From NCBI GenBank assembly GCA_002171735.1, contig NHDO01000094.1:1-32774 (forward strand): a stretch of DNA of 32,774 bases, given 5' to 3'. The DNA comes from Proteobacteria bacterium TMED61 (GTDB taxonomy: Bacteria > Pseudomonadota > Gammaproteobacteria > Arenicellales > UBA868). Position numbers and translations under genes: made by a program. Shown in pieces: positions 19,421-32,774 of the stretch. Within the stretch, counting starts at the first letter, position 1. Each line of letters starts with the position of its first letter. Under the pieces are notes generated by a model. It saw only the letters and a program-made list of their open reading frames with translations. It was not told where the DNA came from and did not search any database.

Positions 19421-22400
19421 TCAGACCTCCTTGAGCCACCATCCAGTTACAGAAGAAGAAACAATTGTTCCTTGCGAGTCTGTAGATCCTAGGTAGATCA
19501 AGGTAAACGCTGCATTTGGTGTTTGTACAACTAGTTCACCAGCATTGTATGGAGTGGATCCACCTAATCCAATTGTTGTTCCTGAATTGTCACCTTGAAC
19601 TCTAACCTGTGATCCCAATGCTCTAATGACTAGAGATGTATCGTAAGTTAGATTCCCACCAACCTCAATGATTTCAACTCTATCTCCACTTTGAGCATTC
19701 TCTGGTAGGAATAGAATCATTTCATCTTGGTTTGTTACGTTAACAAAGTAAGTAATGTTAGATTTCAGATTCTTATCATCAGCATCAGATCCAGTAGATA
19801 CATATCTGGCATGTCTACCACCACTATTGGTGTAGAAATTGTTGATGCCAAATGCGTCAATAGAATTATCTTGATTAACTACGAACTTATCAGCACCGTT
19901 AATACCAAGATTTTCAACAGATAGTTTCGGTGCCTTCGGTGGAGACTCTTCTGGAGATCCAACAACCGACCAAGTATTACCAACTAAACCATTACCAAAT
20001 GTATCAATCTTAAATGATGGTTCACATGACTGTGCGTCTGTAACAACGTTTTCTGGACAAGTTGCTGGGAAGAGAGTAATATTACCTCTTCCAATAACAC
20101 CTGCATCAAAGAAAATAGATCCGGAATGATCTGCATGACCATCATCATTAACAACTCTCAGGATATTTGTCTTACCGACAGAATCCTTCATGGTAATGTT
20201 ACCACCAAACATGGTGAAGTCTTTGTTAAGAACTAGATCACCGTTTCTATGAGTAACATTACCATCTTGGAGTGTTTCATCCATAGAAGGTGTGTGGTAT
20301 TTTCCTAGTAAACCTCCATTAACAAGGAATACCTTACCATCTGGATCAGATGCACTAGTAATTCTTACAAAGTTTGTGTAATCAAGTTTTGTTTGAACAA
20401 TTTGTCCCTTATCAATAATTACAGAAGCGTAAGGAGTATTAGTTCCATTAACATCACGAGTTCTTTCTTCAATATCAATCATTGAAGAAACCATAGGATG
20501 CTTCAGAATTCTAACAACACTAGTCGTAGTTGCTGGGTAAGTTGATAATCCATTTGCAGTTGTTCCTTCTTGAGCAGGAAGACATCTCAAAATATTTGCG
20601 GTGGTATCAACTACCAAAACTTTCATGATTTCCCAATCAGTTCCAGTTGTTCCCTTAGCATTAATCTGAGATGTATTACCAACCAGAACTAAATCATCAA
20701 CAGCAAATCTGCCAGATCCAAGACCCAATTCAGCAACAGTTAGATAAACAGATCCAGCAATAGCACCAGTATTTGCAGTTGCAGTTAACGTTGTAACTGG
20801 ACCATTAGCATTAGTTGTTTGAGGATCAACCCAATAAGAATAAATCTTTTGATCTTCTTCACTTCCACTATAAGCAGCTACAGTATCTGCAGCAGACTCT
20901 GATCCAGGAAGAATTCTACTAATATCAATTCTTCTGATTTGGTTACCAATTTCAAGAGCGGCACTACAGGTATCAAAGTAAAGAGTGTTTTGCTCTTTAC
21001 CGTTAGTAATGATAAACTCTTCGTTTTTAGTAACACGGAATACTATGTTTGTCAGAGATGCAGTGGAAACAATATTCTTATTAAGTCTAATAAAGTCTGT
21101 TCCGATCTCAATAATTCTAGTGTTACCGAACAGATCTGCATTAATTCCACCAACATTAAATTTAACAGTATCATTAAGTTTAACCTTAGCAATGTCAGTA
21201 GCACTGATATTGGTAATTGTGTCTACTAGAATGCTTGGAGCAACAGGTGTAATATTACCAGTGATTGTTCCTCTATCTGTAGTAGAGCAACCACCATTCA
21301 TATTGATGGAGTTTTCAATTGTTACCGTACCACCGATATAAGTATCACCATTTGTAGAATCAACAATGAAGACATCATTGTCTGGACTTCCACAGTCAGA
21401 AATTCTAAACTTCTGAACCTCTTGATTGAGTGATGTTAGAACCTTAAGGATTTCACCTTGATCAAAGGTGCCATCACTATTAGTATCTTCACGATCAACA
21501 ATTACATAATCACTGACATTTAGATCTCCACCAAACTCTGCAAGATATACATTATCTTCAGGTCCATTTGCATCTAATTGTTGTTCGGTCCATGTAGAAT
21601 CAAACTGTACATTAACCTTATAAATTGGTGTTGTATCTGGGTGTGTGTCTACTTGTCCAGTAAATGTACCGAAAGGTTTACGCTCAACTTTAATATAATA
21701 TGGTGCAGTATTGATTCTAGTTAACTCTAGAACTTTCAAGAATTCTGGATATCCAGTTGTTGTAATTACTGGACTATCAACAATAATATAATCATTTTCA
21801 ACAAAGTATGGATTACCATCTGCCTTTTCTGGTTTATTTTTAAGAGGTAAGTAGAATTCATTACCACTTAAGACCGGCAATCCAATGCTTTGATCATCTT
21901 GATATGAACTAGAACCCCAATTTCCAGAACCAGCACTATCAATTTGGTTATATCCAGTATCAGTAGTTGCAAGACGTGTGACATTTAAGATGTCAATATT
22001 CTTATTGAACTGAAGATCTGCAACGATAACTCCATCATCATGTGCAGAAATTGTTGTTCCACTCTGTCCTCTAGATGCACTGAATGCGAAGGATGCAAGT
22101 CCACCACACATATGCATGTTGCCGTTGAACTTAGCAGATGCAATAACTTCCAACTGGTTGTTGATAGTAGTCTTACCACCCTGACCAGCGATGTTAACTT
22201 CAGATGCATTTAGACCGAAGTTAATAGTAGATGCAGAACCAGAGTCAGAGAAGAAGCTAACTGTACCAGCAGTAGTAGATAGTCTTACACTATCTGTAAT
22301 AGTACGCCTAGTTCCTAACTGAAGATCGCCATTAACTTTCAGAGACTTAGTTTTAACCTCAGTGTATGATTGAGATTCATTGTTATTATATGCACCACCG

Positions 22401-25400
22401 ATCTCAATCTTGGAAATATTTCCAAGAGGAGTGTCTGGAGTAGATCCGATAAAGATATTACTATTAAGGGATTTGGTGCCTATCTTAACATATTGTTCTC
22501 CTTCAGTTTGATTGCCAATTTCAATATTCTGTACCGAACCAGCAATTTTGAGACCACTACCATTAGCAACACCAACAAATGTGCTATTCATTAAGAAGTT
22601 AAATGTGCCTGAAGTAATATCAGTTCTGATTTCAGCAGTGTTAGTGCCACCACCACCATGAACTTCAATATCCTGTTGGAATCTAGCATCGTCAGTGAAT
22701 CTAGATGTGCCATCAACAACTAATGCTCTGTCTAGTTCAGCATCAGTTACATTAATACCGACACGACCACTGTTTGTAGTTGCAACTCTAAGCGTTGCTT
22801 CATTTGCTGGTGTTGCACTATCACCACCAACTAATAATGCATAATCAGAAGTTGTTTCTGTTCTATTGGCAAATGCAGCATTGTCTAAGTAATCAGAAAT
22901 AATCTTACCACTGATAAATGCATTACCAACAACATCAAGGTTTGCACGAGGAGCAGTTGCAACATCAACAAATGCAGTCTTATATGCATCATGTTCAGAT
23001 CTTGCGACTGTGTTAATACCAAGTTTGTAGTTACCAATCTCTTCAGTATCAGTTCTAATTGTTTCAGCACCAAGAACTCCAAATTCTTTCCAAGAAGAAT
23101 TAGAGAACTCTAGTCTTACATCATTTCCAAGTGCAACTTCATCACCCCATAGGCGTGGGTTATCATTAGCAACATTAGATCTATTCTCAATGAGAGCAAT
23201 CTGACATGTGTTGGCAGTAGATGTAAATCCATTACCGATGATCTGCCACAGACCATTAAATCCAGGATCACTAAAGTTACTAATTCTAATTTGTGATCCG
23301 CTAGTAATACCAAGTTGTTGGTTGCTTAGATTGTTACCCCAGGTAATGGTGATGACAGTGCTACCATTCATTGTGAAGTGAAGGATATTTGCTGTTGCAA
23401 TTTCACCAAAGAAGTTAGCATAAATCCAACCTAATGATCCGGAACCACCAACTTCAGATCCCTTAAGAAGGATATCTCCAGCTAATGGAACTATAGATCC
23501 ATACAATACATTTTGAGTAGCATCAAGTGTAGTTCCAAGACCTGTGTTATACAAAGGACTTTGATTGGGTGTGATATTTGACCCAAGGCTTCCAACTACA
23601 TGATTTTGAATCTTATAACCTTGTGCAGCACCATTTGAACCACGTGGATTAAACTGGAATACAGAAGCAGCAACTCGGTTTCTTGCAATTACAATATCAC
23701 CAAAAGTATCTTGATTGAGGAACTGATTAGTCTTATCAAGTGATGCGTCATCGCCATCACTAGGTGATACATTAGAAACTACAGTAAATGCATATTCTCT
23801 AACTCTACCCAGAACATTAATAGTCACAGGAGAATTAAATGTACTCATGCGATCCTGTTGATCACCACCATTAACAGTGATGTACTCATTGAATGTTACA
23901 GGAGTATCAAAAGTAGTAACAAGACTACCGATATCTTCAGTATCATCTTCAGAATCAACTAACTGTGCAGATTCTAGGAACTCTTCCTCACCTGTGATAG
24001 CATCAATCTTACGGTTACCAATGTATAGGTCACCATTAGAGTTCAGACCAGTGTAGAATACTAAACCACCATCTTGCTTCTTAGACTGTGCATAGAAGTC
24101 TTGAGTTGGTGTTAGAACGATCTCCTGACGGGCAGGAAGACCGGTTGAATAGTTACCAGGACCGAATCCAAGATACTCAAACGTGTGGTTACCTGCACGA
24201 GCAATAGAAGGTCTTCTAAGTTCAACATAGAGACGCATATCAGACATTACAGTGCTGTCACCAGCAATAGGAATGCGACGATCTTCAGATCCAGATGCAG
24301 CATTACCCTTCTGCGCTCTCAATCTGTTGTCAATATTAGAATTGACTTGAGTGTAAGTATTTTGTATAAGTGCTTGCTGACTCGTAAAGTCAAGCATTGC
24401 TTCACGAGTCATTGAACCCTTGAAGTCATTAACTCTTACAAGACCGTGAGTATAGTTATCTGCAGCAGAGTATGTTGCAGGAACATCAAGTTGGGTGTTA
24501 TCTAACTGCTTAAACCAAAGAGGATCATTCTTATAGTTCAGTGGATACAGTTTGCTGATTGGTTGAGAGAACTTAAAGTTACGGAAGTTACCTTGGTTAC
24601 CAGCACCAGTTGGGAATGGGGAGATGTTACCACGAACAGCAGTTAGATAGTAAATACCATCTTGCTGACCGTATATACGGCGTTGAATCTCTTCAACATC
24701 AAAGATATAGAAGGTATCATCAAGTTCCCCAGTATCGGTTACAGAATCTACGTAGAACTGAACGTTTGCATCGTCAGTGATAATATCACCAGGAGTGATA
24801 GTATAAACTTTAGATCCAAGTTGTCTGTAGTAATATTCTGGATAGTTCTTACGAATAAGATCTTTAATGTATAGAGACTTACCAAAGTCTTCATCAGTCA
24901 GTAGGTCAGCAAATACTGCACCTTGAGCAAATCGGATATTTTCAAAAGCTGAATAGTCAATCTTACCAGAAATACCCTTAAGGATTAAATACCAGTCACT
25001 TGTATTTGGAACATTGAGTACCGCATGCACAAATGCATAACCCGAAGAATTACCATACCAATCAACTCTATTTGTGGAATTTGATTGAGTCTTATTAGCA
25101 ACGAAAGAACCACCCTGAGGTGAAGTAATCTTAACTGTGGTAAACGTCTCATTCAACAATCCAACGTTTGTAATACCTAAGTCAAATACAGTCAGTTCTA
25201 ATAGTTCGTCACCACTTTGTGTATCATTAAAGTATCTACCAGACTGAATAGTCATTGAGACATAATTAGAAGTCTCAATACTCTTAGCGTACTGAGTTGT
25301 ACCTACAACATCTCTCTTGTATGGATCATATGCAGTCTCTTCATTTAGATTATTACTAAGGAAATCTGCCTTAGTGAAACCAATAACTTCATTTGCTTGT

Positions 25401-28400
25401 ACTGGGTTGAAGAACCTTGCTTTTGTTACAGAACCAGATACTGGTTTAAGTACAAGTTTTTGTGGCAGAAGTTTTCTAGTTTCATCCTTACGAACTTTAA
25501 TAGAGAATCCATTAATAGGATCACGAACTGCTTGTAAGTAATCAGGAATAACATAACGAAGACGATAGATACGATCATCTTTATCTCTTTCATCCTTGAT
25601 CCTTTCAAACCAAGCATCGTTAGTCTTATCTTGACCAGAGATATCGCTATAAGTATTCTCATGCAGTCTAGTCAAGATACTTTCATCATACCTAGGATCA
25701 TTAACATTAGAAGAATGATCCTCAACCTGCATATACCACTTACCATAAATTGCTGGTGTAGTATTTGGATTTAAATATGACGGATCATATTTTACAGGTG
25801 ATTCACGCTTATCTGCAAATGTTGAGAAGTCGTAAGAACCAGTCTGGAATGTAATTGCATTAATATCAGCAATTGCATCTGACTTTGTTGCGTGAATAGT
25901 GAAAGTTTTTTCAGTTTGATATCTTGCCCAGAAGAATTTATCTCCACGAATTCTACCATTGCTATCAGAGATAGAACTATCTCCAGCATAGTTAGAACCT
26001 ACAAGAGGAACACTTCCACCTTCATTTGCTCTAAAGAATACCTGATGACCAGAAATATCTGCAAAAGGAACATCAAAGATATGTGGTACATCAGTACGAA
26101 TCTTAGAGTTAGTATTTGCCTCTAGGATACAATTGTACTGATGCAAATCATAATTATCATCTAATACAAATTGATATACATCAATTTCAATATCAGGATC
26201 AATAGACTCTACTTCAGCAGAGTGAATATAGATACCTGCTGCAGCATTTTCTTTGCTGTTTGCAAGCATAATTTTTGTTTGATCTGTTCCGTTAAAGACT
26301 GAAGTTCCTTCGTAAGGTTCGGGTTTTGTCTTTCTTGCAGGAGCAATTACATAATACTCTTCGTTGGTTTCAAAACCATTTGGAAGTCTAATCTTTCTCT
26401 TATCAACATCAACATAAGAGTTGGTTACGCTATCATAACGAGGACGTGGAACCAATCTAATTGGTGTGCCAGTTTCTAGGTTATGTGGGTTGGCACCAGC
26501 ACCTGTTCTAAGAGTCCAAGTTGTTGCTCTAGAAGCAAGTTGTGTGGTAAGTTGAGAAGGTTCTACTCTAGGAATAGTATTCAGACCGGTCTGAATAATC
26601 GTTGAGATATTAGTAAAGAACTGACGAATAGCAGAAGCTTGATCAGCACACTCTGGATAAGAGGTATGTTGAGTAATGGTATCGTCAACAGTTGGTGAGA
26701 ACTCAGATGTATATACGCCTGAAGTTAAAGTGAAGTATAGGTAGGAGTTTGTGGTGGTTGCGTTTGCATTTACCGATGGACCAAATGCAAGTCCGAGTGG
26801 AGACTCAACTCTATCAACTGACTGTAAGTATCCAGGATTTGCAATTGTATTATTAACAATCTGGAACAGAGTAGTAACAGCAGATGCTACATTCTGACAA
26901 GATCCGTTAGATACAGTTCTAAGAACAGATGAAAGTGATGTTGGCGTTAATACTGCATTCTGAACAATAGTAAAGAGTGTAGTAATAGTCGTTCTAGCAT
27001 CCTCACATGATCCAACAGACAAAGTTCTTGCAACGTTAGCAAGGGAAGATGGTGTGTTGATAGCAACAGTAACTAGATCAGTGAACGTTGTCAGAGCTGA
27101 TTTAACATCATTACATGAGGCATTAGATAAAGTACGGGTAATACCATATAGTAAATTACCAGAGGTAATGGTATTAGTAAGAACTTGAATCAACGTGGTG
27201 ATCGTAGCTGCCTGTGAAGCACAAACAGGTGATCCATCAGCAGTAATCGTTAAGTCTTTAGATTGAGTTAATGTTGTATGACCACCGATAGTTACATTTT
27301 CGTTTCTCATGACCTCAATCATGAGAGCACGTGCTTCAGTAAACGCGAAGATTGTTTCGTTTACAGATCCCGAAGCATGTCCCCCAGTAGCATAGAAGTT
27401 AGCAGCATCCCATACTCTGTCATTACCACCATATGCTAAGTTATGTGAAACAACTTCTACAACGTCCTTAATGTCATCAAGACAATCATCAGTTGTATAT
27501 CCAGTAGGAGATGTATATGTTGGGAAGTTTGCTAACATTCTACCCAAAGCAATCTCAGAAATAAAGTCTTTGTTTGCTAGGATTAAGTTTCTTGCATCTG
27601 CAGACTTATTATCTACAGGTGTAGGAGCATCAACTGTAATAGTTGTATCTTTTGTCTGGGTTAAACCATGACTACCAATAAGGAGCATGGTTTCATTTCT
27701 CATTGCTTGGACCATTAGGTCTCTAGCATACTCAAACGCCTGAGTAGTTTGTAGTTCTTCACCTACAACATGTTGTCCTACAACATATAGGTTTGCCATG
27801 TCCCAAACCCTATCATTTCCACCAAATGCTAGGTTATAAGAAACTTCATTGACAAAATCTAGAATATCATCAATACAATCCTGCGGACCATATCCAGTTG
27901 GATGGACATATCCAGGATTCTCAGCCATCATTCTTTCATATGCTTCAGCAGCAATCAATGCCTTATTGGAAATGATTAAGTTGCGAGCATCACCATTACG
28001 ATCAATTACTGGATCTGGTAGGTCATATGTAACATTATCAAACCCAGAATTAGCAATACCAACATTAACTGTAATTGTATTTGCAGTTACAGCACTAATG
28101 TTTACAGCAGTATCATATGCGGGGTCACCTGATCTAGGATAAGTATGTTGAGATGCATTTCCATCCTGACTACAAGTGAATGTTAATGAGTTAGCAGCAA
28201 TTTTAATACTTGTCCCTGCAGTCAGTGTGTGAGCACCAATTGTCAATACCATTAGACCAGTTGCTGCATCATAAGTTGCATTCGTAACATCATGATTTAC
28301 AATCGGTGATGCACCTACGTTTATAGTAAAGGTATCTGTGGTTGTTGCTGTGATAGCAATATTCTGTCCAGATACGGGGTCTGTAGATCTTGGATATGTC

Positions 28401-31400
28401 TTGGTTGCTGTATTACCATCCATTGCACAGGTAAAGGTTAGTGCATTATCAACAATAGAAATTGTATTTGATGTTGTTAACCCATGCCCAGTAGAGGTGA
28501 TAGTCATATCACCAGTTGTTGCAGTATATGCTACATCTGTAACTGCGTTTGGTAAGTTACCTGCACTTGACGTAACTCCATTTGTTGCAGAAGATACGAA
28601 TGTATGTGTATAGTTGCCACCAGATGATACAGCAGCGGCAAGAGCAGATACAAAGGTGTGTACAGAGTTACTATAAGTTTGAGTTAAACCATGCGATCCG
28701 ATAGAGAGAACTTTTTGGTTTCTCATTACCTGAGCAGCCATTTCTTTTGCTTGTTCAAAAGCATAATTTGTTTCTGCTTCTTCGCCTACTACATGAGCAC
28801 CTTTAACATATGAATAAGCAGCATCCCAAGTTTTATCGTTACCACCATATGCTAAGTTATCAGCGACTGCTTCTAGCAGATCTCTAACATCATCAACACA
28901 ATCGGCAGAAGTATAACCAGAACCATACGTATGGGCAGGGTACACATTCATCATTCTTGCTACTGCTTCTTCAGCAATAAGTTCTTTGTTAGCAAGAATT
29001 AGATTACGAGCATCGCCATAACGATCTTTTACTAGTTCAGGTGCTTCATATGTAATAGTAGTATCTTTCTGTTGTGCTAAACCATGAGATCCGAAGATGA
29101 ATACATCTTCATTACGCATGACTTGGATACACATATCTCTAGCATATGTGAATGCTTTGATAGTCTCATCTTCTTCACCAGCAACATGAGCACCGGTTTC
29201 ATATAAGTATGCTGCATCATAAGTAACAGCATTACCACCAAAGGCGGTATTTTCTGCAACTGCTTCAATTACATCAATAATATCATCTTTACAATCCTGT
29301 GGATTACCCGTAGGAGTAACAAATCCAGGGAAGTCAAGGACCATGCGATCATATGCTTCAGCAGCAATGAATGCTTTATTGAGAAGGATTAAATCTTTTG
29401 CGTCTCCATAACGATCAGATACTAGTTTCTTCTCACTATATACTGCTTTTTGACCCAACTCAATTGTAGTTGCATCAATAACACGCTTAACATAGGTGTT
29501 ATCTGGGATGGCAGGAGCATTAGGACGTGAAGCTCCAGCATTTAACTTACCATCAGTAAACTCAGAGGGATCGTAATCTGCAACGATCATACCCTGAGAA
29601 ATACCAGAAGTATCACCAATGTCTACAATAGAAGATGCTGCTGTAGTAGAAACACCTTGACGCAGATATGCGAAATTACGCATTGCTGCAATTGCTAAAT
29701 CTCTTGCGTAGTTATATCCTTCTAAAGTTTCTGATAGTTCTCCGGTGATATAAGAAAGATTATTTCCAACATAATAAGACTCTGCTGCCTGAATAGTATT
29801 AATATTACCACCAAGACGGAGATCCTGTACCGTGGCATCAATTAGATATCCAATATCGCGACGACACTTCTCAATACTAATACCAGATTTAACTACGAGA
29901 CTTGGATACTTTCCAGTAATATATCCATATGCTTCAGCAGCAATGAAACTCTTATTTTCTTCAATTCTATCTGCTGCATCAAGATCCTTATTATTAAGTA
30001 CAAGACTACTAGGATTAAGGATAGATGCAGTTGCAGTAAATTTTCTAAATCCATTTGGTGATAACGTAGCATCAAAGATGTTACTAGCACCAGCACTTCT
30101 TGGAGTTAATTTTACATATAATTTTTCATTACTTCTTGCACCAATTCTAAATCCATCAATTGATGCTGCAGGTCTCTTAGCAGGATCATATGCTTCATCA
30201 TCACCAAAGTAAATTTTACTGTGATTATTAGGATCATTAGATGCTTTTACATCAATGGTGTAATAAGCATTCTTCTTGGTATTTCCTTGTGTCTCAGGGA
30301 TAGTTTTTGGAGGAACAATATCCGTGATATAACCACCCTTATCTTGATTAAAGGCAAATCCTTTAAAACCAATAGCATGCAGTGATGTATTACCAAAGTT
30401 GGAGTTTGAGTTCGTGATGGACATATCACCACCACTTTCCATCAGGAAGTGATCAGCAAAACCAACAGCGAATATAGAAACGTTCTGAATGAATGCGTCA
30501 TCTGATGCACGAACGTGGAAGTTTCTCCAGTCATCCTTCCAATATGCATCACCTTTGGTGTGATATGGAACAGTAGCAAATGCATCAGTTAGTGATGCCT
30601 GATTAAACGTGTTAGAATACTCATCATAACGAATGAATGCTCTATCATCTTTCTGCAATGAAACGCCCGTATACTGAGCGATAACCATTGATTTGAATCC
30701 AGTCGCCTTAAGACCGTTTGCCCAGATTCCGCAAATACCCCAGGTAGAGCGAATAGAGCAGTTAAAGACATACGGAGACGCGGATTCAACAGAATCAACT
30801 TCCGCTTTAACTACAGCATTTGCACTCAATCCACTTTGAGCCGTATATACTGTTCCACTAACTAAACTTATACTAGTTCCAAGAGATGCAACAGTTCCGG
30901 GAATTTTATAAGTGAACTTTCTACCATCTACTAGATCAATATCTTCTACAGGGAAAGTACCGTTTAATTGATCATCCAACCCATTGTTTTCAATAGAAAC
31001 AAACTGGTTCTTGAAATAACCATGGTTTACTTTAGTGGTAATATTAACACTAATTGTTCCTGCAGGCGAGGAATCTACACACTCAATGCTCTCAATAGAG
31101 CGAATGTCTGATAGAGGACCAACAATTCTGGTTTCTTGAATTCTTTCAGTGAATTCACCAGGATCGTCAATTGTTGGTTGATACTGAGAAAATGCCTTAG
31201 CAATCTTCTGATAGTATAGACCTAATTCTTCTTTGTCTGCATATTCAAATACAGTTAGTTTATGGTGAGAATAGTTAGGAATTGCTAGTTGATCCCAGTA
31301 TCCATTCTGATAATATACTTTACCTACACCTTCGTTCTTATTGTAGAGAGGAGAAGAAGGTTCTAGATCACCATCTTTAATCGTAAACTGCCAGAAATAA

Positions 31401-31915
31401 CATGCACCAGTTACATTAAAGATAGCAGAACGCTTCTCTAACCTATCTGCAGGATCTGGAACATATAAAGGACGTACAACAGTTCTACGAAGGTCATAAC
31501 CTACGAGAGATGAACCCCTAGGTAGAATTGCACCACCTTCAGTGTTATTAAATCTATAAAGAATATTATTTGGATCTGAGATATCAAGATTAGAGTTATC
31601 TTCCCACTCATTTAATGCTTGATTGAATGCAAATGCATCAATACCTGTAGTTCCAACAATGCCAGGACGGTTATCAATATAATGATTACCAGGCATCAAC
31701 ATGATCGTGAACTGGTCAAAACGATCATTATCAGGACCAGGAAGGTATGAATACCTCGCAATTTCCAAGAATGCTCTCTGAATAGACTTAAATGGTCTAA
31801 TTGGGGAATTTCCCCTGTTGTTCAACTCATCCGAAGCATTAAAATCATCGGGGGAGACATACAAATACTTACCAGTTTTACTACTAATAAGATTGTCAAG
31901 TCTAGTCAAAGCCAT
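19421..31915 (-). CDS. Giant repeat-rich virion structural protein (about 4,164 aa)
   Basis: An uninterrupted 12.5-kb frame. The listed start is the ATG at 31915 (MALTRLDNLISSKTGKYLYV); a TTG three codons upstream is the alternative. The N-terminus (SPDDFNASDELNNRGNSPIR, PFKSIQRAFLEIARYSYLPG) is, from memory, characteristic of large T4-like cyanophage structural/fibre proteins and looks like a beta-helix start. Residues about 645-1560 hold five helical repeats of about 115-125 residues plus an inserted beta-repeat pair, then 36-residue repeats. The second half is beta-rich with trimeric-fibre-like segments and ends in a probable fibre tip (TYFVNVTNQDEMILFLPENA). Inferred: a long tail fibre or baseplate-associated fibre shaft. 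A TATAAATA late promoter lies 41 nt upstream of the ATG. Confidence 0.8.
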   Translation of the reverse strand: MALTRLDNLISSKTGKYLYVSPDDFNASDELNNRGNSPIRPFKSIQRAFLEIARYSYLPGPDNDRFDQFTIMLMPGNHYIDNRPGIVGTTGIDAFAFNQALNEWEDNSNLDISDPNNILYRFNNTEGGAILPRGSSLVGYDLRRTVVRPLYVPDPADRLEKRSAIFNVTGACYFWQFTIKDGDLEPSSPLYNKNEGVGKVYYQNGYWDQLAIPNYSHHKLTVFEYADKEELGLYYQKIAKAFSQYQPTIDDPGEFTERIQETRIVGPLSDIRSIESIECVDSSPAGTISVNITTKVNHGYFKNQFVSIENNGLDDQLNGTFPVEDIDLVDGRKFTYKIPGTVASLGTSISLVSGTVYTAQSGLSANAVVKAEVDSVESASPYVFNCSIRSTWGICGIWANGLKATGFKSMVIAQYTGVSLQKDDRAFIRYDEYSNTFNQASLTDAFATVPYHTKGDAYWKDDWRNFHVRASDDAFIQNVSIFAVGFADHFLMESGGDMSITNSNSNFGNTSLHAIGFKGFAFNQDKGGYITDIVPPKTIPETQGNTKKNAYYTIDVKASNDPNNHSKIYFGDDEAYDPAKRPAASIDGFRIGARSNEKLYVKLTPRSAGASNIFDATLSPNGFRKFTATASILNPSSLVLNNKDLDAADRIEENKSFIAAEAYGYITGKYPSLVVKSGISIEKCRRDIGYLIDATVQDLRLGGNINTIQAAESYYVGNNLSYITGELSETLEGYNYARDLAIAAMRNFAYLRQGVSTTAASSIVDIGDTSGISQGMIVADYDPSEFTDGKLNAGASRPNAPAIPDNTYVKRVIDATTIELGQKAVYSEKKLVSDRYGDAKDLILLNKAFIAAEAYDRMVLDFPGFVTPTGNPQDCKDDIIDVIEAVAENTAFGGNAVTYDAAYLYETGAHVAGEEDETIKAFTYARDMCIQVMRNEDVFIFGSHGLAQQKDTTITYEAPELVKDRYGDARNLILANKELIAEEAVARMMNVYPAHTYGSGYTSADCVDDVRDLLEAVADNLAYGGNDKTWDAAYSYVKGAHVVGEEAETNYAFEQAKEMAAQVMRNQKVLSIGSHGLTQTYSNSVHTFVSALAAAVSSGGNYTHTFVSSATNGVTSSAGNLPNAVTDVAYTATTGDMTITSTGHGLTTSNTISIVDNALTFTCAMDGNTATKTYPRSTDPVSGQNIAITATTTDTFTINVGASPIVNHDVTNATYDAATGLMVLTIGAHTLTAGTSIKIAANSLTFTCSQDGNASQHTYPRSGDPAYDTAVNISAVTANTITVNVGIANSGFDNVTYDLPDPVIDRNGDARNLIISNKALIAAEAYERMMAENPGYVHPTGYGPQDCIDDILDFVNEVSYNLAFGGNDRVWDMANLYVVGQHVVGEELQTTQAFEYARDLMVQAMRNETMLLIGSHGLTQTKDTTITVDAPTPVDNKSADARNLILANKDFISEIALGRMLANFPTYTSPTGYTTDDCLDDIKDVVEVVSHNLAYGGNDRVWDAANFYATGGHASGSVNETIFAFTEARALMIEVMRNENVTIGGHTTLTQSKDLTITADGSPVCASQAATITTLIQVLTNTITSGNLLYGITRTLSNASCNDVKSALTTFTDLVTVAINTPSSLANVARTLSVGSCEDARTTITTLFTIVQNAVLTPTSLSSVLRTVSNGSCQNVASAVTTLFQIVNNTIANPGYLQSVDRVESPLGLAFGPSVNANATTTNSYLYFTLTSGVYTSEFSPTVDDTITQHTSYPECADQASAIRQFFTNISTIIQTGLNTIPRVEPSQLTTQLASRATTWTLRTGAGANPHNLETGTPIRLVPRPRYDSVTNSYVDVDKRKIRLPNGFETNEEYYVIAPARKTKPEPYEGTSVFNGTDQTKIMLANSKENAAAGIYIHSAEVESIDPDIEIDVYQFVLDDNYDLHQYNCILEANTNSKIRTDVPHIFDVPFADISGHQVFFRANEGGSVPLVGSNYAGDSSISDSNGRIRGDKFFWARYQTEKTFTIHATKSDAIADINAITFQTGSYDFSTFADKRESPVKYDPSYLNPNTTPAIYGKWYMQVEDHSSNVNDPRYDESILTRLHENTYSDISGQDKTNDAWFERIKDERDKDDRIYRLRYVIPDYLQAVRDPINGFSIKVRKDETRKLLPQKLVLKPVSGSVTKARFFNPVQANEVIGFTKADFLSNNLNEETAYDPYKRDVVGTTQYAKSIETSNYVSMTIQSGRYFNDTQSGDELLELTVFDLGITNVGLLNETFTTVKITSPQGGSFVANKTQSNSTNRVDWYGNSSGYAFVHAVLNVPNTSDWYLILKGISGKIDYSAFENIRFAQGAVFADLLTDEDFGKSLYIKDLIRKNYPEYYYRQLGSKVYTITPGDIITDDANVQFYVDSVTDTGELDDTFYIFDVEEIQRRIYGQQDGIYYLTAVRGNISPFPTGAGNQGNFRNFKFSQPISKLYPLNYKNDPLWFKQLDNTQLDVPATYSAADNYTHGLVRVNDFKGSMTREAMLDFTSQQALIQNTYTQVNSNIDNRLRAQKGNAASGSEDRRIPIAGDSTVMSDMRLYVELRRPSIARAGNHTFEYLGFGPGNYSTGLPARQEIVLTPTQDFYAQSKKQDGGLVFYTGLNSNGDLYIGNRKIDAITGEEEFLESAQLVDSEDDTEDIGSLVTTFDTPVTFNEYITVNGGDQQDRMSTFNSPVTINVLGRVREYAFTVVSNVSPSDGDDASLDKTNQFLNQDTFGDIVIARNRVAASVFQFNPRGSNGAAQGYKIQNHVVGSLGSNITPNQSPLYNTGLGTTLDATQNVLYGSIVPLAGDILLKGSEVGGSGSLGWIYANFFGEIATANILHFTMNGSTVITITWGNNLSNQQLGITSGSQIRISNFSDPGFNGLWQIIGNGFTSTANTCQIALIENRSNVANDNPRLWGDEVALGNDVRLEFSNSSWKEFGVLGAETIRTDTEEIGNYKLGINTVARSEHDAYKTAFVDVATAPRANLDVVGNAFISGKIISDYLDNAAFANRTETTSDYALLVGGDSATPANEATLRVATTNSGRVGINVTDAELDRALVVDGTSRFTDDARFQQDIEVHGGGGTNTAEIRTDITSGTFNFLMNSTFVGVANGSGLKIAGSVQNIEIGNQTEGEQYVKIGTKSLNSNIFIGSTPDTPLGNISKIEIGGAYNNNESQSYTEVKTKSLKVNGDLQLGTRRTITDSVRLSTTAGTVSFFSDSGSASTINFGLNASEVNIAGQGGKTTINNQLEVIASAKFNGNMHMCGGLASFAFSASRGQSGTTISAHDDGVIVADLQFNKNIDILNVTRLATTDTGYNQIDSAGSGNWGSSSYQDDQSIGLPVLSGNEFYLPLKNKPEKADGNPYFVENDYIIVDSPVITTTGYPEFLKVLELTRINTAPYYIKVERKPFGTFTGQVDTHPDTTPIYKVNVQFDSTWTEQQLDANGPEDNVYLAEFGGDLNVSDYVIVDREDTNSDGTFDQGEILKVLTSLNQEVQKFRISDCGSPDNDVFIVDSTNGDTYIGGTVTIENSINMNGGCSTTDRGTITGNITPVAPSILVDTITNISATDIAKVKLNDTVKFNVGGINADLFGNTRIIEIGTDFIRLNKNIVSTASLTNIVFRVTKNEEFIITNGKEQNTLYFDTCSAALEIGNQIRRIDISRILPGSESAADTVAAYSGSEEDQKIYSYWVDPQTTNANGPVTTLTATANTGAIAGSVYLTVAELGLGSGRFAVDDLVLVGNTSQINAKGTTGTDWEIMKVLVVDTTANILRCLPAQEGTTANGLSTYPATTTSVVRILKHPMVSSMIDIEERTRDVNGTNTPYASVIIDKGQIVQTKLDYTNFVRITSASDPDGKVFLVNGGLLGKYHTPSMDETLQDGNVTHRNGDLVLNKDFTMFGGNITMKDSVGKTNILRVVNDDGHADHSGSIFFDAGVIGRGNITLFPATCPENVVTDAQSCEPSFKIDTFGNGLVGNTWSVVGSPEESPPKAPKLSVENLGINGADKFVVNQDNSIDAFGINNFYTNSGGRHARYVSTGSDADDKNLKSNITYFVNVTNQDEMILFLPENAQSGDRVEIIEVGGNLTYDTSLVIRALGSQVRVQGDNSGTTIGLGGSTPYNAGELVVQTPNAAFTLIYLGSTDSQGTIVSSSVTGWWLKEV
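19425..19432 (-). promoter_or_regulatory. Perfect Shine-Dalgarno for the 460-aa fibre gene
   Basis: AAGGAGGT lies 7 nt upstream of the ATG at 19417, within the last codons of the giant fibre gene. It is the strongest ribosome-binding site noticed in the window, so this fibre gene is probably well translated. Confidence 0.7.
26800..27223 (-). repeat. 36-residue (108-nt) tandem repeats in the giant fibre
   Basis: Four consecutive units, each beginning with Cys: CASQAATITTLIQVL..., CNDVKSALTTFTDLV..., CEDARTTITTLFTIV..., CQNVASAVTTLFQIV.... The first three are exactly 36 residues, with a conserved TT-L/F-x(2)-V core and RTLS/RTVS-N/G near the end. A fifth, diverged unit (CADQASAIRQFFTNI...) occurs after an insertion of about 50 residues. 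They probably form a helical solenoid or coiled shaft. Confidence 0.8.
27265..29980 (-). repeat. Five ~120-residue repeats in the giant fibre
   Basis: Each unit has the outline D/N-x-D-A-R/K-N/D-L-I, A/S-N-K-x-x-I-A-E/A-E-A, P-x-Y/G-P-T-G, D-C-x-D-D-I, a G-G-N-x-x-x-D-A-A block, G-E-E-x-E-T-x-A-F-x-x-A-x-x-M-x-x-x-V/M-R-N and S-H-G-L. Units lie near 29660-29980 (diverged), 29075-29430, 28680-29035, 27665-28015 and 27270-27620. The region between units 3 and 4 holds the inserted pair at 28050-28550. The units are diverged at DNA level, so the duplications are old. Confidence 0.8.
28050..28550 (-). repeat. Inserted pair of beta repeats (TYPRSxDP type)
   Basis: Two copies of a roughly 80-residue unit: a G-H-G/G-A-H-x-L-T loop, L-T-F-T-C-x-x-D-G-N-x-x-x-x-T-Y-P-R-S-x-D-P, then I-x-A-x-T-x-x-T-x-T-V/I-N-V-G. 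They interrupt the series of helical repeats between units 3 and 4. The YPRS.DP motif is shared by other cyanophage structural proteins, as I recall, and may be a mobile fibre domain. Confidence 0.7.
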
Positions 31916-31955
31916 ATTACTCAACCGCTGCGGTTACTAAGATCTGATCTCAGAT

Positions 31956-31963
31956 TATTTATA
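31956..31963 (-). promoter_or_regulatory. Perfect T4-type late promoter (TATAAATA)
   Basis: TATAAATA on the minus strand lies 41 nt before the ATG of the giant structural gene and just downstream of tRNA-Asn. It is an exact T4 late consensus. Directly after it come an inverted repeat ATCTGA-GA-TCAGAT (31942-31955) and a small hairpin AACCG-CAG-CGGTT (31923-31935), giving a structured leader. Confidence 0.8.
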
Positions 31964-31966
31964 CAA

Positions 31967-32038
31967 CTCCCGAGGCAGGATTTGAACCTGCGACCGAGTG
32001 ATTAACAGTCACCAGCTCTGCCACTGAGCTACTCGGGA
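31967..32038 (-). tRNA. tRNA-Asn (GUU)
   Basis: A 72-nt cloverleaf can be folded: acceptor TCCCGAG / CTCGGGA with discriminator G, D-arm AGCTCAGTGGCAGAGCT, anticodon loop CTGTTAA (anticodon GTT) and T-arm GCAGG-TTCAAAT-CCTGC. No CCA is encoded. Asn tRNAs are frequent in T4-like cyanophages and suit an AT-rich codon bias. It is the last gene of the RNA cassette and is preceded by a short hairpin. Confidence 0.9.
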
Positions 32039-32043
32039 TTAAA

Positions 32044-32058
32044 GAGGTATTTCACCTC
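32044..32058 (-). other. Hairpin between the tmRNA and tRNA-Asn
   Basis: GAGGT-GAAAT-ACCTC forms a 5-bp stem five nt before the 5' end of tRNA-Asn. It may be a processing signal or spacer in the polycistronic RNA precursor. Confidence 0.4.
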
Positions 32059-32330
32059 AAGGATTAAGAAAGGGGCATCTCACCCCCCAGAACTACTTGG
32101 TTAACAAGGCTAGTTTAACCCCGATCTCCCATTCAGGCAGTCGCGAGTTCGCGAGTGCGGGAGAATGCAACGATATTATTCGCTGCGGTGTCAGATGTTT
32201 TTGCATCTATGGTTTGCTTATCCAAGCAGGTTTCAGTAACACTCCTTATACCCCGTCTAAACCATGGCACCCCCATGAATGGAGGTGAGGGGAATTGAAC
32301 CCCTGTCCGACATATCGGTGGCGTCACCTA
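32059..32330 (-). ncRNA. ssrA: Circularly permuted (two-piece) tmRNA
   Basis: The gene order is acceptor piece then coding piece, as in permuted tmRNAs. Acceptor piece (about 32280-32330): ends with T-arm AGGGG-TTCAATT-CCCCT, acceptor strand CACCTCC and discriminator A (32280). A 5-nt linker (32275-32279) separates it from the coding piece, which starts GGGGGTGCCATGGTTTAGAC at 32274. GGGGGTG pairs with CACCTCC in 7 bp including G3-U70, the alanyl-tRNA synthetase identity pair. GTGTTAC near the 5' end of the coding piece pairs with GTGACGC of the acceptor piece (helix P2, two wobbles). A TGCTT-GGAT-AAGCA stem fits PK1. The tag frame (32133-32183) encodes ANNIVAFSRTRELATA then TGA, flanked by TCTCCC/GGGAGA (P5). 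CCA is not encoded. Exact 5' and 3' ends are approximate. With SmpB it would rescue stalled ribosomes. Confidence 0.92.
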
Positions 32331-32346
32331 TTCCACAAAAGTGGAA
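32331..32346 (-). other. Hairpin between tRNA-Thr and the tmRNA acceptor piece
   Basis: TTCCAC-TTTT-GTGGAA is a perfect 6-bp stem with a four-base loop, immediately adjacent to the 3' end of tRNA-Thr and just before the tmRNA acceptor piece. It may separate the two precursors for nuclease processing. Confidence 0.5.
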
Positions 32347-32419
32347 AGCCAAACACAGGACTTGAACCTGCGACCTGATCTTTACAAAAGACCTGCTCTA
32401 CCAGCTGAGCTAGTTTGGC
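32347..32419 (-). tRNA. tRNA-Thr (UGU)
   Basis: A 73-nt cloverleaf: acceptor GCCAAAC / GTTTGGC with discriminator T, D-arm AGCTCAGCTGGTAGAGC, anticodon stem GGTCT / AGATC with loop TTTGTAA (anticodon TGT), and T-arm GCAGG-TTCAAGT-CCTGT (one G-U). No CCA is encoded. A minus-strand protein frame reads into the first half of this gene (see the partial CDS at 32382). Confidence 0.9.
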
Positions 32420-32774
32420 GTTTAAACTCTAAGTGTCCCCATTGAGAACCCCAAAGTTTTTTTCCAGTCTCAGGATCAATTCCCGAATCCATAACCTTGT
32501 AATCATTATAACCTAAAATTATGCTGTTTGTCAAGTAAGTTTTAATTCCTTTCCAAATAACCCAGCAAGTACACTCAGTATTACTACCATGATATCTGTT
32601 CCCAATTAATTCAAATAACGTATCACATCCTTCTTTATATACGCCTTTTAGGTCATAATTTTTGACGCGAATTTTTTCCCCTTCTGGGAAAATACGAATT
32701 AGAAATTTCCTGTAGGGTTCTCTTTTATGAAAAGATTGGGTTCCCTCAAACCAATCACCACCGATCCACTTATG
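32382..32774 (-). CDS. Unidentified protein, 5' end outside the window, overlapping tRNA-Thr
   Basis: A minus-strand frame is open from the right edge for 130 codons and stops inside the tRNA-Thr anticodon arm. The visible part is rich in W, Y, K and G (HKWIGGDWFEGTQSFHKREP, YRKFLIRIFPEGEKIRVKNY, then CTCWVIWKGIKTYL and MDSGIDPETGKKLWGSQWGH), which is not typical of a chance frame. The last 12-13 residues (QTSSAGRAGLL) come from the tRNA sequence and are probably not ancestral. The natural stop may have been lost when the tRNA/tmRNA cassette was placed here. No family is recognised. Overlap with a tRNA gene makes expression of the full frame doubtful. Confidence 0.5.
   Translation of the reverse strand, partial: HKWIGGDWFEGTQSFHKREPYRKFLIRIFPEGEKIRVKNYDLKGVYKEGCDTLFELIGNRYHGSNTECTCWVIWKGIKTYLTNSIILGYNDYKVMDSGIDPETGKKLWGSQWGHLEFKRQTSSAGRAGLL

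Follow-up and report, generated by a model that had tools for sequence, protein, structure and literature searches.

Two-piece tmRNAs have been described in phages before. Among 133 unique phage tmRNAs, 53 have two-piece structures, 50 of these being from marine or aquatic phages, and the legend of Fig. 5 in the same paper presents the major tmRNA lineages, Cyanobacteria included, as common to hosts and phages (PMC9004378, Buchholz et al. 2022). AG-345-P14, which is also in our sample (L131), is named there, and Melnitz and Mosig are further two-piece cases from marine phages. A 2025 survey has 79 phage sequences among 97,179 (PMC11915505). It also reports a tRNA-Ala inside the intervening sequence of a permuted tmRNA, in the nominally archaeal GCA-2688965 sp002688965, and calls the case unique. 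The phage two-piece tmRNA examined here is of an already published kind, going by the excerpts of PMC9004378 used for comparison; it departs from what they describe by the end of its tag, and its kin do so by tRNAs within the linker.

A permuted tmRNA gene in a tRNA array

The window, by which we mean the whole stretch of 32,774 nucleotides that was analysed, has a complete match to cyano_tmRNA (RF01851, model positions 1-288) on its minus strand, scored by cmscan at 141.7 bits (gathering score 70, E 7.4e-39). The tmRNA_permuted model (RF04321) matches at 32133-32328 (-) with 85.2 bits against a cut-off of 47, and ARAGORN called a tmRNA* at 32042-32369 (-) with the tag given as AKTSDTAANNIVAFSRTRELATA. 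A sequence-only reading of this DNA had proposed a complete circularly permuted tmRNA of the cyanobacterial type and had named a covariance-model search as the check; the search returned a high-scoring match onto which the predicted pieces could be mapped. Chance is ruled out as a source of the match by the RF01851 E-value of 7e-39. A standard one-piece tmRNA was also rejected, RF00023 reaching only 25.7 bits at the site.

The sequence, ARAGORN and the model mapping agree on the order of the two pieces that had been read from the letters, with the T-arm and acceptor 3' strand first, then a 5-nt linker and then the acceptor 5' strand (Table 1). The alanine-identity pair G3-U70 is likewise present (32272/32283). 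The limits first proposed for the gene, 32059-32330, take in the pieces that had been named and leave the leading hairpin outside. All seven acceptor pairs are standard in the window, as are all 12 of the acceptor and T stems together, and CCA is not encoded after A73. The element GGTTTAGAC is present, listed between the acceptor 5' strand and the tag frame. Homology with host genes puts the resume codon at GCG 32181-32183. ARAGORN instead placed it at GCA 32202-32204, a candidate we rejected; of its three bases, the first belongs to the stem of the hairpin found in phages and the other two to the loop. Judged from its sequence, the gene very probably encodes a functional two-piece tmRNA.

Table 1. 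Features of the tmRNA locus in the window, and tRNAs found in the linkers of related phage copies
Feature	Position	Strand	Basis or remark
CpeT-like antenna protein gene, cyanophage marker	32382..32774	-	phrog_488, E 3e-23; cut at window end
tRNA-Thr (UGU)	32347..32419	-	ARAGORN; directly upstream of tmRNA, same array; same place in ACG-2014j
Permuted tmRNA, covariance-model extent	32072..32362	-	first ~15 positions inside tRNA-Thr; gene proper from about 32346
Leading hairpin of acceptor piece, UUCCAC/GUGGAA	32331..32346	-	RF01851 structure mapped on window; starts right where tRNA-Thr ends
Long helix of acceptor piece, 5' strand	32308..32328	-	partner is 32235-32255
T-arm	32288..32304	-	model structure; T stem paired in 42/42 unique phage sequences
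Acceptor stem 3' strand, CACCTCC	32281..32287	-	U70 is 32283; then A73 at 32280
Linker TTCAT, 5 nt	32275..32279	-	tRNA-Tyr or tRNA-Asn at same place in relatives
Acceptor stem 5' strand, GGGGGTG	32268..32274	-	coding piece begins here; G3 is 32272
Long helix, 3' strand	32235..32255	-	RF01851 structure, phage pairing counts
Hairpin AGATG(CAAAAA)CATCT, 5' of resume codon	32193..32208	-	phages only among sampled segments
Tag frame ANNIVAFSRTRELATA + TGA	32133..32183	-	resume codon by homology with host genes
Hairpin in 3' half of tag frame	32138..32157	-	RF01851 structure
3' pseudoknot region, GGTTAA/TTAACC and AACTA/TAGTT stems	32092..32129	-	second stem 5/5 pairs in phage variants
Last hairpin, GGGGUG/UGCCCC	32072..32086	-	RF01851 structure, phage pairing counts
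tRNA-Asn (GUU)	31967..32038	-	cmscan 69.1 bits, ARAGORN; downstream of tmRNA, same array
Linker tRNA-Tyr (GUA) in relatives	L035, L041, L082, L262, L272, L276, L278, L280, L288, L256; e.g. L082:11661-11743		close kin of the window's phage
Linker tRNA-Asn (GUU) in relatives	L260:2878-2949; L292:1488-1559	+; -	79-nt linker, 2 rows; contig names point to one sample

The suggestion that the gene is owned by a cyanophage is upheld by its surroundings. The CpeT-like gene adjoins it, and the nearest records are Synechococcus phages, placed in the Kyanoviridae where they are classified. Among the other proteins of the window are matches to phage families of tail fibre, tail assembly and 2OG-Fe oxygenase proteins. 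In the assembly the window forms contig C9 of a MAG (G000) of 2.6 Mb, 84% complete and 6.65% contaminated, which has SmpB and lacks archaeal L15e. With the same stricter filters, cyano_tmRNA was found in none of 40 relatives of the MAG, whereas in a picocyanobacterial family 68 of 81 genomes had it, and on these grounds a tmRNA native to the MAG's genome was rejected. Because of these counts and the phage neighbours, the contig is most likely a piece of cyanophage misbinned into a non-cyanobacterial MAG. Such wrong binning would mislead host assignment.

The region is syntenic with the phage ACG-2014j (L491:1504-1654). At the same CpeT–tail fibre junction that phage lacks a tmRNA and has only 3 nt between tRNA-Thr and tRNA-Asn, so the tmRNA is a cassette, gained or lost, that lies between two tRNAs of a phage array. 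Right after the array, an open frame of 4167 aa starts from TTG (19421-31924, -). In ACG-2014j this position is taken by a 12 kb gene annotated as a short tail fibre protein, and the frame probably encodes a giant tail-fibre protein. Between tRNA-Asn and this frame lies TATAAATA, the core of a T4-type late promoter (31956-31963, -); it occurs once in the window against 3.1 expected by chance, and only its position is suggestive.

Conservation and ancestry of the phage copies

To compare the gene across phages and hosts, we gathered loci by motif, host and phage totals being among the matches listed. Rows were kept if a T-arm was present and the tag fitted a core motif, leaving 74 genome rows, drawn from at least 117 genome loci, and 56 phage rows, which come from IMG/VR and from named phages; no row was lost for lack of the acceptor motif. 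Two loci, L001 and L124, duplicate the window; the cut contig L256, together with L266 and L407, stands outside the counts. A loose gap-pattern scan yielded a tmRNA in four of 114 new loci among the matches listed, two of them permuted according to ARAGORN.

Over 63 model pairs and 42 unique phage sequences, 2113 of 2460 cells (85.9%) hold a standard pair, the pairing structure being a model fitted to one of the scored phage sequences; with partners slid by 1-3 columns as a control, 44-53% do. Some model pairs fail, with mispaired columns in the tag hairpin and in a small hairpin at positions 134-166. The seven acceptor and five T-stem pairs are formed in 42/42 unique phage sequences, with compensatory exchanges (C-G/U-A, C-G/G-C and A-U/G-C). 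U70-G3 is invariant in the same 42, most loci having been fetched by motifs that fix U70, C71, C72, A73 and the inner T-stem bases. The pairing can also be judged on the 19 unique sequences that came from BLAST or the tag motif, with no acceptor motif involved. All 19 have 12/12 standard pairs and G3-U70 too, and exchanges occur at five of the 12 acceptor/T positions. The tRNA-like domain is conserved in the phage copies.

Two further helices vary in sequence. The second stem of the 3' pseudoknot, which is absent from the Rfam model, has 5/5 pairs in seven sequence variants, including AACTA/TAGTT, AGTTA/TAACT and GACTA/TAGTC, among the 35 of 56 phage rows fitting a motif in which one of these pairs is fixed and two are restricted. 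The hairpin preceding the resume codon ranks as the best in 21 of the 33 unique segments from phages and in none of the 50 from hosts. It too shows compensatory changes (AGATG/CATCT, ATCTG/CAGAT and the like).

The pairing bears on whether the tmRNA gene is a passenger, carried along by a mobile tRNA array without being of use at present. Its presence or absence at one site, as at the ACG-2014j junction, and the gain and loss of linker tRNAs (see below) would be in keeping with this. However, compensatory stem changes run across a deep phage group, and we regard a mere passenger as extremely unlikely.

We built two trees, both without the tag columns and with no root inferred. One has 64 rows (42 phage and 22 host) and the other 74 (34 phage and 40 host, without the eight longest-branched phages). 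Phage and host sequences are split by a 100/100 branch in both. The 64-row tree carried a long-branch warning at the host side, and in the 74-row tree warnings arose only elsewhere. When a host gene was the query, 17 phage records were matched, each over 33% of the query or less. Given this poor coverage and the 100/100 branch, the phage copies look like an old phage lineage with no fresh capture. Capture from a host, as the sequence-only reading had it, thus finds no backing, the gene being moreover a cassette of a phage tRNA array. The window's own tag end is ATA, not VAA, and its position in the tree is not among host sequences.

Some picocyanobacterial genomes have second, weaker or degraded tmRNA copies (L202:7538-7569; G057:C8:15487-15781; G076:C11:308429-308665). 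In L202 and G057, perhaps one genome, some 3.2 kb separate the second copy from the main one. The extra copies are perhaps traces of elements inserting at the tmRNA gene.

Altered tag ends and tRNAs in the linker

Host tags are uniform. There are eight unique ones, all of 16 aa, and they end in VAA in 74/74 rows and 30/30 unique coding sequences. The 22 unique phage tags range from 14 to 24 aa, and the ends in the 56 phage rows are ATA (21), VAA (19), VAV (9), QTV (3), VTA (2), AVA (1) and VLA (1). VAA ends 11 of 30 unique phage coding sequences, and 11 of the 38 phage rows left when those newly added by the tag-motif scan are set aside. Two further phage tags excluded by the motif, those of L266 (PVVA) and S-CRM01 (L407, VAAL), are not VAA-ended either. 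Most non-VAA phage ends retain the final Ala. Changes in the VAA state number at least 10 on the 64-row tree and seven on the 74-row tree, and all non-VAA tips are phages; summed branch lengths in the 74-row tree are similar, 12.4 for phages and 11.3 for hosts.

The window's tag shares the core ANNIVxFSR with the host and ends in ATA. Part of the core's conservation is built in by the row filter, which fixes F at tag residue 7 and R at residue 9 and limits residues 1-5. Residues 1, 2, 4 and 5 nonetheless keep their amino acid despite the allowed letters, with synonymous codons such as GTT/GTA/GTC. All 56 phage rows have A or V as their final residue, which argues that the tag frame is read.

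In E. coli the Ala-Ala end is the most important element for ClpXP, and altering either alanine raises KM (PMC7652416). Tags in Synechocystis rank LVA > AAV > ASV, the latter two being weaker (review PMC3446811). On the strength of these papers and the loss of the terminal Ala-Ala, the phage tag is predicted to be a weaker or redirected degron with ribosome rescue retained. The literature search, over open-licence papers, mostly at listing level and without supplements, found no treatment of cyanophage tag ends. The sequence-only reading had raised the retagging of incomplete proteins as one use of a viral copy, an idea that gains weight because the phage tag differs from the host's at its C-terminus. 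The weakened or redirected degron may well be a selected feature, although we stop just short of calling this probable.

Alternatively, the phage may only supply a supplementary dose of tmRNA as messages degrade. The change in tag end would then reflect relaxed constraint or an effect of the tag hairpin, with the chains still destroyed or their fate immaterial. Conservation of the RNA part fits such a role, VAA is retained in 19 phage rows so that its loss is not universal, the final residue is still A or V throughout, and the tag end lies within a hairpin where base pairing may have driven the changes. Yet the Rfam model built on hosts has the same hairpin while every host row ends in VAA, and the repeated changes of tag end on the tree are all in phages. 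We hold a purely supplementary role to be possible, if doubtful.

SmpB was found in 0/5 phage genomes versus 3/3 host genomes. The phage result would suit a decoy, an RNA that competes with the host tmRNA or soaks up SmpB and so dampens trans-translation, a role also suggested for the tag-less RNA of DS6A. An RNA like that of DS6A, which has the tRNA-like domain only, inhibits tmRNA (PMC4131195). For a decoy, however, a resume region, a 3' pseudoknot and a tag frame with A or V as its last residue would be superfluous; the phages have kept all three, making a decoy highly unlikely.

Phage linkers are 4-6 nt in 45/56 rows and host linkers 5-55 nt in the 74 rows. Nine of the 56 phage rows have an 89-nt linker with a complete tRNA-Tyr(GUA) in it; a tenth contig, L256, which is cut at its end, has an identical insert. 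Since the ten inserts are identical, they are probably one event. Two other rows hold a tRNA-Asn (Table 1). One insert of each kind was scored with Rfam, giving 58.4 bits for tRNA-Tyr and 70.8 for tRNA-Asn against 29. Among 206 permuted ARAGORN calls (all loci, two window copies counted) a linker tRNA is present in 11, all cyanophage, and a search for linker tRNAs in tandem had no match. L276, a contig of 192.8 kb, is 94-96% identical to the window around the tmRNA gene; among its 10 tRNA matches there is no other tRNA-Tyr, and the contig may be a fragment. In the tree the window falls among the tRNA-bearing copies, but a grouping of those copies apart from the window is not rejected (p-AU 0.413; 0.427 for the tRNA-Asn pair).

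A tRNA within the linker is as expected if the linker is excised. Linker excision would best explain these inserts, which on sequence grounds support two-piece processing in the window's lineage. They are also a natural test of whether permuted precursors are processed like tRNA arrays. A bolder reading is that trans-translation has been reprogrammed, rescue being uncoupled from destruction by the repeated loss of Ala-Ala, and that in some relatives the split tmRNA also releases a tRNA and acts as a carrier for tRNA genes. We think this rather unlikely.

Proposed working and known systems

The reading we favour, as somewhat probable, is a working two-piece tmRNA owned by the phage, from an old lineage of Kyanoviridae cyanophages, that rescues ribosomes while destruction of the tagged chains is slowed or redirected. 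RNase P, CCA addition, AlaRS and EF-Tu have general roles in tRNA and tmRNA biology. The tmRNA would be transcribed together with the phage tRNA array, its precursor cut at the linker by host tRNA enzymes (RNase P and a 3' enzyme) and CCA added. G3-U70 would let host AlaRS charge it, and its delivery to ribosomes stalled on broken messages would fall to host SmpB and EF-Tu. The tag ANNIVAFSRTRELATA would then be appended to the unfinished chain. The ribosome would be freed, and a chain ending in ATA would be destroyed more slowly or be redirected since the terminal Ala-Ala is gone.

If a cyanophage tags without a destruction signal, the phage would regain ribosomes without feeding the protease. 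The predicted weakening of the degron is directly testable by reporters in Synechococcus, for example with the ends ANNIVAFSRTRELATA, ANNIVAFSRSTVAA and ANNIVRFSRQAAPVAA.

Like Melnitz, Mosig and AG-345-P14, the window's phage is a marine phage with a permuted ssrA. The excerpts of PMC9004378 used here do not treat tag sequences or linker tRNAs, and the window itself has no riboswitch match at the gathering threshold (cmscan). Homologous permuted tmRNAs are present in each of Sf-FS3 (L129), S-CAM1 (L130), S-CAM3 (L132), S-SSM7 (L133) and S-CRM01. The nearest named phage is Sf-FS3, with 87.0% identity over 88% of the query, and it shares the ATA end; the tags of S-CAM1 and S-CAM3 end in VAA, that of S-SSM7 in VTA and that of S-CRM01 in VAAL. 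The records of these five phages have no tmRNA feature at the site, which is blank or given to short hypothetical proteins. Because the gene is unannotated in the named-phage records examined, the distribution of cyanophage tmRNA is probably under-counted.

The ssrA of Synechococcus, Prochlorococcus and Cyanobium shares with the window the permuted order, the Rfam family and the tag core ANNIV/ANKIV-x-FSR. It differs in its constant VAA end (74/74), its linkers of 5-55 nt, the AGATG/CATCT hairpin (0/50 unique segments) and its place on the other side of the 100/100 branch, and the host gene L136 scores 320.6 bits with RF01851 compared with 141.7 for the window. The permuted tmRNA of GCA-2688965 sp002688965 resembles those of the window's relatives in having an intact tRNA gene within the linker. 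There the case is a single tRNA-Ala, whereas cyanophage contigs have tRNA-Tyr in ten and tRNA-Asn in two, and the window's own linker is a plain 5 nt.
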